Shown here: in pieces, positions 41,546 to 43,915 of the stretch
Numbering within the stretch: position 1 is the stretch's first letter
Layout of the letters: every line of letters starts with the position of its first letter
Assembly (NCBI GenBank): GCA_003344655.1
Contig: MAIU01000002.1
Coordinates: 1-59,658, forward strand
Source: Candidatus Korarchaeota archaeon NZ13-K
GTDB lineage: Archaea; Korarchaeota; Korarchaeia; Korarchaeales; Korarchaeaceae
Direction: 5' to 3'
DNA length: 59,658 bases
The notes under the pieces: model-generated
The model's input: only the letters and a program-made list of their open reading frames with translations
Told to the model about the DNA's origin: nothing
The model's database searches: none
Translations under genes and position numbers: made by a program

Positions 41546-42373
41546 ATGCCTGTGAGTGCGCTGGTGATATTCGAGGGCGTCAGCTTCAGGTACGAGGGGA
41601 ACGACTCCTACGCCATCAGGGATGTTTATCTGGAGATTAGAAGGGGGGATTTCGTTCTCATAGCCGGGATGAGTGGCTCCGGGAAGTCGACCCTGCTGAG
41701 GATGATGAACGGGCTCATACCCCACTTCTACAGGGGTGAGATGAGGGGGAGGGTCTTGGTCGATGGTGTTGACACTAGAGACGCTAGTGTGGCCCAGCTG
41801 GCTAGGAAGGTTGGGTTGGTTTTTCAGAACCCGGATAATCAGGTGGTGACTCTCAGGGTTGATAGGGAAATAGCTTTCGGCCTAGAGAACCTAGGGCTGC
41901 CTAGGGAGGAGATAGTGAGGAGGGTGGACTATGCCCTCTCCAAGCTGAGGATAGAGCACCTGAGGAGGAGATCCACCTATGAGTTGAGCGGTGGCGAGAA
42001 GCAGCTGGTGTCGATAGCTTCGCTAATCGCCATGAAACCGGAGGTGATAGCCTTGGATGAACCGACGAGCGAGCTGGATCCCTACAGCGCAGCTAGGATA
42101 GTTAGGGCCCTAAAGGAGTTGAACAGGGACGGTGTCACCGTGGTGGTGGCTGAGCACAGGCTGGACCTCTTCGCCCCAGCATCCAACAGGTTCATAGTCG
42201 TCCATGACGGTAGGATAGTGATTGAGAGCGATCCAAGGGATGCGTTATATTGTAAAGACCTTCAGGTCTTCGGTGTTAGGGACCCAGGTGTTGTGAGGTA
42301 CGCGAAGAGCAGGGGCGTCAGCGCCAGGAGGCCCCTGACCGTCGGTGAGCTCTTCAGGGCCATGGTGAGGTGA
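41546..42373 (+). CDS. ecfA1: ECF transporter ATPase, first copy (EcfA)
   Basis: An ABC ATPase of 275 residues with Walker A 'GMSGSGKST' (about 41-49), Q-loop 'FQNPDNQ', signature 'LSGGEKQ' and Walker B 'VIALDEPTSELDP'. It powers vitamin or metal uptake together with EcfA2 and EcfT. A 161-bp part of the gene (41675-41835) is identical to part of ecfA2. The stop overlaps the ecfA2 start by 4 bp. No substrate-binding S-component is present nearby, so the substrate is unknown. Confidence 0.9.
   Translation: MPVSALVIFEGVSFRYEGNDSYAIRDVYLEIRRGDFVLIAGMSGSGKSTLLRMMNGLIPHFYRGEMRGRVLVDGVDTRDASVAQLARKVGLVFQNPDNQVVTLRVDREIAFGLENLGLPREEIVRRVDYALSKLRIEHLRRRSTYELSGGEKQLVSIASLIAMKPEVIALDEPTSELDPYSAARIVRALKELNRDGVTVVVAEHRLDLFAPASNRFIVVHDGRIVIESDPRDALYCKDLQVFGVRDPGVVRYAKSRGVSARRPLTVGELFRAMVR
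41675..41835 (+). repeat. 161-bp perfect direct repeat, copy 1 (in ecfA1)
   Basis: Every base from 41675 to 41835 matches 42493-42653, an offset of 818. The tract covers Walker A through the Q-loop. It stops at t41674/c42492 on the left and t41836/g42654 on the right, and homology drops at once outside it. Confidence 0.97.
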
Positions 42374-43176
42374 ATTCTTTGATAAAGATAGAGAACGCTA
42401 GCTTCAGATATGAAGGAACTGATCGTTTTGCTATAAAAGATGTCTCCATCGAGTTCGATAGGGGGAGGATCTATGGGGTAGTGGGGCCCAACGGCTCCGG
42501 GAAGTCGACCCTGCTGAGGATGATGAACGGGCTCATACCCCACTTCTACAGGGGTGAGATGAGGGGGAGGGTCTTGGTCGATGGTGTTGACACTAGAGAC
42601 GCTAGTGTGGCCCAGCTGGCTAGGAAGGTTGGGTTGGTTTTTCAGAACCCGGAGCACATGTTCTTCTCGGAGACCGTGGAGGAGGAGGTTTCTTTCGGGC
42701 CCAGATCCATCGGTATGAGTGAAAGTGAGGTTTCTGAGTCAGCGAGGTCGAGCTTGGAGGAGGTGGGACTCTGGGAGGTCAGGAAGAGGAGTCCTTGGTC
42801 CCTCAGCGGTGGGGAGATGAAGAGACTCTCCATAGCATGCATACTAGCGATGAGACCCTCATTCCTGGCGTTGGATGAACCCACGATAGGGCAAGACGCG
42901 CTCTCCAAGGACTCCCTCACCAAGATACTGAGGGACCTGAGAAGTGAGGGGAGGGGCATAATAGTGGTGACGCATGACCTGGATTGGTTGAGCGAACTGG
43001 ACCCGGATGAGGTGGTGGTACTCAACAGGGGATCTGTTTACAGGAAGGGGACACCTGGTGAGGTGTTCTCCGATCTCAGGGGGTTGGTCATGAGCCAGCT
43101 CATTCCTCCAGTTCCCTACCTGATCGAACGCCTGTGTGGGAGGTGCTTAGATGTTCGATCCATTGGGAATGTTTGA
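42370..43176 (+). CDS. ecfA2: ECF transporter ATPase, second copy (EcfA')
   Basis: An ABC ATPase of 268 residues with Walker A 'GPNGSGKST', Q-loop 'FQNPEHM', signature 'LSGGEMK' and Walker B 'FLALDEPTIGQDAL'. It should form a heterodimer with EcfA1. Outside the 161-bp identical tract the two proteins are clearly diverged, so the tract was copied between them. The start is TTG or the codon at 42370 overlapping the ecfA1 stop. The 3' end overlaps ecfT by 26 bp. Confidence 0.88.
   Translation: MNSLIKIENASFRYEGTDRFAIKDVSIEFDRGRIYGVVGPNGSGKSTLLRMMNGLIPHFYRGEMRGRVLVDGVDTRDASVAQLARKVGLVFQNPEHMFFSETVEEEVSFGPRSIGMSESEVSESARSSLEEVGLWEVRKRSPWSLSGGEMKRLSIACILAMRPSFLALDEPTIGQDALSKDSLTKILRDLRSEGRGIIVVTHDLDWLSELDPDEVVVLNRGSVYRKGTPGEVFSDLRGLVMSQLIPPVPYLIERLCGRCLDVRSIGNV
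42493..42653 (+). repeat. 161-bp perfect direct repeat, copy 2 (in ecfA2)
   Basis: Identical to 41675-41835. The repeat encodes the ATP-binding core from 'GSGKST' to the Q-loop in the same frame in both genes, so recombination between the copies would delete 818 bp and fuse the two genes in frame if 818 were a multiple of three, which it is not. Confidence 0.97.
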
Positions 43177-43915
43177 GATATTCAGAACGTACGCCGGGGA
43201 GACCCCCTACTCCAAGCTGAACCCCACCTCCAAATTCATACTTTTCCTGACTTTCTTGATCCTCCCCCTGATCTCGCCCAGCATCGTGCTGCAGGTATTA
43301 TCAGTGGCCGCTCAAGTGCCTCTGGTGGTGATGTCGAGGTCCGGTAGGAGGGTGCTGAGGTCCCTGAGGGCATCGATCCTCTTCATCCTGCTACTCTTGA
43401 TCTTGAACTATGCGACCACAGGTAACATCTTTTTCAGTGCTGCGATGGTGATGAGGCTCTTAGCGATGATAATAGCCTCAGCGATATTCATGAATGGATC
43501 AAGTCCGTCGGAAATAGGCGATCTTCTGGCGAAGCTCAGGGTGCCGACCTCCATCTCTTTCTCCTTCATAATAGCCCTGAGGTTCATCCCGGTCCTGGCC
43601 GACGACTTCATGAACATACTCTCGTCCCAGGCGAGCAGAGGGTATGAGATCGAGAGGGGCAGCCTCGTGAGGAGGGCCAAGAGCCTGATACCGGTGCTTA
43701 TCCCTCTGATAGTCATAGCCATCAGGAGGGCCCAGCAGCTGGCTGAGGCTCTGGAGAGCAGATGCTTCGGTTCCGGATTGAGGAGGACAAGCTATGTCGT
43801 TTATGAGGTTAAGTTAGCGGATGTACTGGCTGTGGTGTACTCCCTCTCACTGCTGGTCTTGGGGGTTTACATGTCCACACTCCCCGTTGGTCTTCCACTC
43901 CTTCAGTTCCGCTAA
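43151..43915 (+). CDS. ecfT: ECF transporter transmembrane protein EcfT
   Basis: The 254-residue protein has five or six membrane helices and the two coupling motifs 'ASRGYE' (about 160-165) and 'ESRCFG' (about 200-205), the A-R-G type motifs that touch the ATPases. It completes the energising module. An S-component must come from elsewhere. The start ATG lies inside the ecfA2 end, and a long non-coding stretch with repeats follows the stop. Confidence 0.9.
   Translation: MFDPLGMFEIFRTYAGETPYSKLNPTSKFILFLTFLILPLISPSIVLQVLSVAAQVPLVVMSRSGRRVLRSLRASILFILLLLILNYATTGNIFFSAAMVMRLLAMIIASAIFMNGSSPSEIGDLLAKLRVPTSISFSFIIALRFIPVLADDFMNILSSQASRGYEIERGSLVRRAKSLIPVLIPLIVIAIRRAQQLAEALESRCFGSGLRRTSYVVYEVKLADVLAVVYSLSLLVLGVYMSTLPVGLPLLQFR

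Follow-up and report, generated by a model that had tools for sequence, protein, structure and literature searches.

Adjacent ecfA1 and ecfA2 ATPase genes of korarchaea share a sharply bounded tract, very probably maintained by continuing gene conversion

The window analysed here is the whole contig MAIU01000002.1 (C2; 59,658 nucleotides) of Candidatus Korarchaeota archaeon NZ13-K, an archaeal draft genome of 1.37 Mb in 148 contigs. Three overlapping genes on its forward strand are of interest. The first open reading frame (41546-42373, +) encodes an ATPase of 275 amino acids, which matches the Pfam family ABC_tran and has the NCBIfam model TIGR04520 (ECF_ATPase_1) as its best hit (3e-67). The second (42370-43176, +) overlaps the end of the first and encodes an ATPase of 268 amino acids with TIGR04521 (ECF_ATPase_2) as its best hit (2.2e-66). 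Both proteins fall short of the curated equivalog cutoffs, with 226.9 bits against 315 for the first and 223.8 against 330 for the second, and are more remote than the members of the curated set; best match and gene order are the grounds for calling the genes ecfA1 and ecfA2. The third gene, ecfT (43151-43915, +), encodes a CbiQ-type T component of 254 amino acids (PF02361, 1.4e-24) and is the partner of both ATPases. In its product, ..SRG.. and ..SRC.. were picked out by eye as candidates for the two X-R-X coupling motifs. The Walker A motif, the signature motif and the Q-helix region are present in both ATPases, as an ECF energising module (A1-A2-T) requires. No S component was found at the locus between 43915 and 44175. 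The Q-helix residue that is usually Gln is a Met in A2 (NPEHMF, window 42646-42663) in all 11 korarchaeal genomes compared, and the Gln is kept in A1.

The sequence-only reading had reported a perfect 161-bp repeat in the two ATPase genes. Its coordinates (41675-41835, +, in ecfA1 and 42493-42653, +, in ecfA2) were confirmed, as was the absence of any mismatch. The copies are spaced by 818 bp, and the adjoining base differs on each side. The remainder of the two genes is indeed diverged, with a synonymous difference of 0.72-0.90 outside the tract, and the longest identical run obtained in 5000 codon shuffles of the pair was 40 bp. The tract comprises about 53 codons, starting inside Walker A and ending at the Q-loop. 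It had been described as covering the ATP-binding core, which holds for the first part of this core; Walker B, the signature motif and the H-loop lie outside.

The comparison used the 11 korarchaeal genomes in which a single contig carries both genes, each a separate species in the collection. Candidatus Methanodesulfokora washburnensis, of the class Korarchaeia, is among the relatives in the public collection. The nearest relatives compared that lack the conversion fall in the order (G024) and in the class (G025) of the window genome, and the word korarchaeal is therefore restricted here to family group f1. The tract was found in 11 of 11 genomes, from Walker A to the Q-loop. Eight genomes have exact runs of 161, 162, 162, 162, 162, 163, 274 and 103 bp; in the remaining three, runs of 77-113 bp are broken by one or two changes. 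Within a genome, tract pS is 0-0.05 in ten genomes and 0.28 in Methanodesulfokora. Flank pS within a genome is mostly 0.6-0.9; it falls to 0.04 and 0.16 in the 5' flanks of G013 and G020, respectively, which have been converted. Comparing genomes with one another gives a tract pS of 0.31-1.0, the same range as in the flanks, and most of these comparisons are close to synonymous saturation.

These values bear on the idea that constraint at the DNA or RNA level, or extreme purifying selection, keeps the copies alike without conversion. The region is functionally important and its between-genome pN is low (0.00-0.18), as constraint would have it. However, synonymous divergence between genomes is as rapid in the tract as in the flanks, and yet the synonymous sites of the tract agree within each genome. 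Shared constraint cannot align species-specific synonymous choices, which refutes this explanation; it is almost certainly wrong.

The phylogenies of the tract and of its surroundings differ. In the tract tree, A1 and A2 pair by genome, with 11 label changes, and a single A1 clade is rejected (AU test, p=1.2e-5). The tree of the 3' flank has one clean split between A1 and A2, with support of 100/100, and the adjacent A1-A2 order is conserved. This order and this split together exclude re-duplication of the genes. In nine of the 11 genomes, the tract contains bases that are private to that genome but fixed in both paralogues; these are substitutions that originated in one of the genes and were then passed to its partner. 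In the tract only, paralogues are thus closer to each other than to their orthologues, with orthology fixed by flanks and synteny, in at least five species, which is the Wang and Chen criterion for concerted evolution. The comparison with related genomes that the sequence-only reading had proposed gives, both in pS and in the trees, the outcome it predicted for a conversion.

That reading attributed the repeat to one recent conversion. Such a single event in the window genome alone would account for the perfection and the sharp edges of the tract there, but ten other korarchaeal genomes have the same tract, each with a different sequence that its two paralogues share exactly or almost exactly. 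The between-genome pS and the trees of tract and flanks refute it as the sole explanation, and we regard it as most improbable. Gene conversion as such is upheld; "recent" is too narrow, since the tract of every testable korarchaeal genome has been homogenised with its own sequence, in most lineages independently, and conversion has therefore been recurrent throughout the family. Repeated replacement in each lineage, whether through new tandem duplications or through tracts imported from other strains, would likewise make paralogues alike within a genome. Against it, each gene has flanks that still follow their own orthologues, and the order of the genes does not vary. Only the internal tract therefore moves, which amounts to conversion in effect, and its donor molecule could come from the sister chromosome or from a different strain; replacement as a process of its own is most unlikely.

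In a draft of 148 contigs, a repeat of this kind could also be produced by assembly or polishing, one sequence being copied over the other. Contigs of relatives do break in the tract, and a scaffold of a Methanodesulfokora bin, L047, joins A1 to A2 over 100 Ns. Several independent assemblies nevertheless hold both copies, including a single contig of 1,590,757 bp (G010) with a 162-bp repeat, and the codons past the edges are intact and gene-specific. The breaks themselves argue in the same direction: contigs end inside the tract in G002, G003, G004, G008, G018 and G019, the G004 contig ending in A1 shares exactly 143 bp with the one that begins in A2, and two contig ends of G008 overlap by 79 bp. 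Contigs that end inside the tract with overlapping ends indicate that the reads themselves share the sequence, as is typical of short-read assemblers at a true exact repeat. An artefact is extremely unlikely.

The L047 scaffold is also relevant to a programmed or reversible recombination served by the repeat, for instance a deletion to a single hybrid ATPase. In silico, a crossover between the copies gives an in-frame A1-A2 hybrid of 270 amino acids, and at 1973-2072 of L047 the 5' half of A1 is joined to the 3' half of A2. This joint, however, is a scaffold gap of 100 Ns at the tract, as assembly collapse predicts; it is probably such a collapse, although it may be a real deletion hybrid. No gap-free hybrid ATPase gene was found among the loci examined. 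A crossover would cost one gene, and selection would remove the loss if both subunits are needed. A role of the repeat in programmed recombination is considered very unlikely.

The edges of the tract are formed by two codons. At the 5' edge, ecfA1 has a Ser codon (AGT, 41672-41674, +) and ecfA2 an Asn codon (AAC, 42490-42492); the second base of this Ser/Asn codon differs between the paralogues in 10 of the 11 genomes. The 3' edge lies at the first acid of the Q-helix, Asp in ecfA1 (GAT, 41834-41836, +) and Glu in ecfA2 (GAG, 42652-42654), whose third base differs, again in 10 of 11 genomes. In 56 pairs from outside the korarchaea, the 5' edge position is Ser in A1 at a frequency of 0.85 and Asn in A2 at 0.92; one residue past the 3' edge, these pairs have Asn (A1) and His (A2) at 0.84 and 0.84. 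The tract ends at the Q-helix acid (D/E). The Q-helix motif, X-P-D/E-X-Q, directly follows the Q-loop and helps to form the groove that binds the T subunit (PMC6828968). Two genomes depart from this pattern. In G020, an island of unconverted sequence just upstream of Walker A has converted stretches on either side, and both genes have Glu at the 3' edge codon. In G013, the 274-bp tract reaches the gene start and A2 now has A1 residues; since this tract crosses it, the 5' edge is not absolute. Judging from the conserved residues, the edges are likely set by selection for subunit identity.

The composition of the tract was typed as A1 or A2 by log ratios from profiles of the 56 outside pairs. 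The 5' half, from Walker A through an IPHFYxG insertion, is A1-type in both genes (summed log ratio +45 and +45). The 3' half, to the Q-loop, is A2-type in both (-18.7 and -18.2). The flanks of each gene keep their own type, with log ratios of opposite sign. An A1-type 5' half and an A2-type 3' half in both copies imply that each gene has been the donor at some time. The 5-residue IPHFYxG insertion is carried by korarchaeal A2 and is missing from non-korarchaeal A2, so it has gone into A2, and the A2-type strand leading to the Q-loop into A1. The GC3 of the tract minus that of its flanks averages +0.117 in the 11 korarchaeal pairs (raised in 10 of 11) and -0.006 in the 56 controls, with a Mann-Whitney p of 1e-4 that is optimistic because the korarchaeal genomes are related and yet treated as independent. 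Raised tract GC3 is as expected if repair is GC-biased.

The controls were 56 archaeal A1-A2 pairs from outside the korarchaea (Bathyarchaeia, Thorarchaeia, Baldrarchaeia, Caldarchaeum and others). They were judged by aligned identity, and exact-run lengths, inflated by overlapping frames, were ignored. The homogenised tract is absent from these 56 pairs, whose nucleotide identity from Walker A to the Q-loop is 0.46-0.66, as in the flanks.

Taken together, the tract is very probably the product of continuing gene conversion between ecfA1 and ecfA2, probably trimmed by selection for subunit identity. The two genes are old, diverged neighbours encoding the two halves of the ATPase dimer of an ECF transporter. 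Homologous recombination or repair would pair the near-identical copies, about 0.8 kb apart, and patch one from the other. Longer patches would be lost to selection, as they would swap the residues that confer subunit identity: the Ser/Asn before Walker A GSGKS, and the D-N versus E-H start of the Q-helix, part of the EcfT-docking groove. The outcome would be an identical block that maintains itself, bounded by two edges that hardly shift. A stronger version, in which the sameness of the Walker A to Q-loop block is itself selected in Korarchaeia and GC-biased conversion is a maintained tool and not a by-product of chance repair, is possible but rather doubtful. If sameness were selected, the two ATP sites of unlike ATPase halves might, for example, be kept mechanically matched.

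Homogenisation that repeatedly halts at the same two codons is a natural experiment on which residues distinguish the halves of an ECF ATPase. The tract is short and well bounded, and suited to measuring conversion bias in archaea. It also explains the breaks of korarchaeal assemblies at the ecfA operon, and trees of whole EcfA proteins and orthologue calls in korarchaea blend two histories.

A general proneness of these genomes to partial conversion was considered and set aside, as no general excess was seen in G010 over a distant control archaeon, G030. In the whole of G010, 7 of 232 paralogue pairs of 35-75% identity have exact runs of at least 60 bp; in about 70% of the genome of G030, the one control, 8 of 116 such pairs do. 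Among adjacent paralogues of G010, a genuine long run occurs only in ecfA and in an unknown family at 100-105 kb; the other long runs are artefacts that arise where ORFs drawn from stop to stop overlap.

Several further observations were made in these genomes. Contig C1 of G010 encodes two CDC48/VCP-type ATPases (192820-195045, -, and 226978-229215, +), about 33 kb apart and in opposite orientation (also loci L203-L208 and L211-L216). Per 40 codons, the D1 domain of the pair is near-identical, at 0.89-1.00 in G010, G011 and G012 and 0.86-0.96 in G009 and G001, and most of the rest is at 0.45-0.85; between genomes the D1 domain is mostly at 0.77-0.93. From these identities, the two genes look like a second domain-limited concerted pair. 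In the window genome (G000, contigs C32, C41, C49 and C3), the CDC48-type genes are split, with contigs ending at residue 239 (twice) and restarting at 329-361, a pattern that an assembly break at the shared D1 core would produce. A CDC48-type gene of G012 (C2, 67612-69825) has one in-frame TAG in the assembly. On the same G010 contig, C1, two aminotransferase-like genes (330577-331659, -, and 352313-353518, +) with 51% amino-acid identity have a 67-bp exact run in common. A long CRISPR-like array lies at about 444200-451600, with a repeat of about 25 bases, GTCTCGATGAAAAGAGGATTGAAAG, a spacing of about 64 bases, and a 280-bp exact repeat pair at 450829/451082.

Prokaryotes offer documented cases of long-lasting concerted evolution (PMC6053082), and for mtrA conversion limited to one domain has been described (PMC4632066). 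In the open-access literature, no report was found of such conversion in ECF or ABC ATPases or in korarchaea. The only study found that combines ecfA1/ecfA2 and gene conversion deals with an operon cluster of Bacilli and Gammaproteobacteria, and the conversion there concerns tuf and rpsN, not ecf. The case of korarchaeal ecfA, with its long-lasting conversion and sharply fixed edges, is apparently unreported, a provisional statement because the search covered open-access papers only.

The genes with recurrent concerted evolution tabulated by Wang and Chen in 2018 (PMC6053082), among them tuf, psbA and amoCAB, resemble ecfA in that paralogues are closer than orthologues in at least five species, but the 26-gene tables hold neither an ABC/ECF ATPase nor a korarchaeon. 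With Group II ECF modules EcfA1-EcfA2-EcfT (4HUQ, 4HZU, 4RFS), the korarchaeal genes share the A1-A2-T order, the ATPase motifs and the Q-helix region after the Q-loop; korarchaeal A2 differs by its Met for the usual Q-helix Gln and by the A1-type IPHFYxG insertion. The closest precedent is mtrA-1/mtrA-2 of Methanococcales and Methanomicrobiales (PMC4632066). These are also adjacent archaeal paralogues, with orthology given by synteny, in which long-lasting conversion preserves the likeness of one domain and the remainder diverges. In mtrA, however, conversion overwrites the entire MtrA domain, and fusion accounts for the difference in the partner transmembrane domains, whereas in ecfA a 53-codon piece within one ATPase domain is concerned, a two-parent mosaic with its edges at subunit-identity residues.
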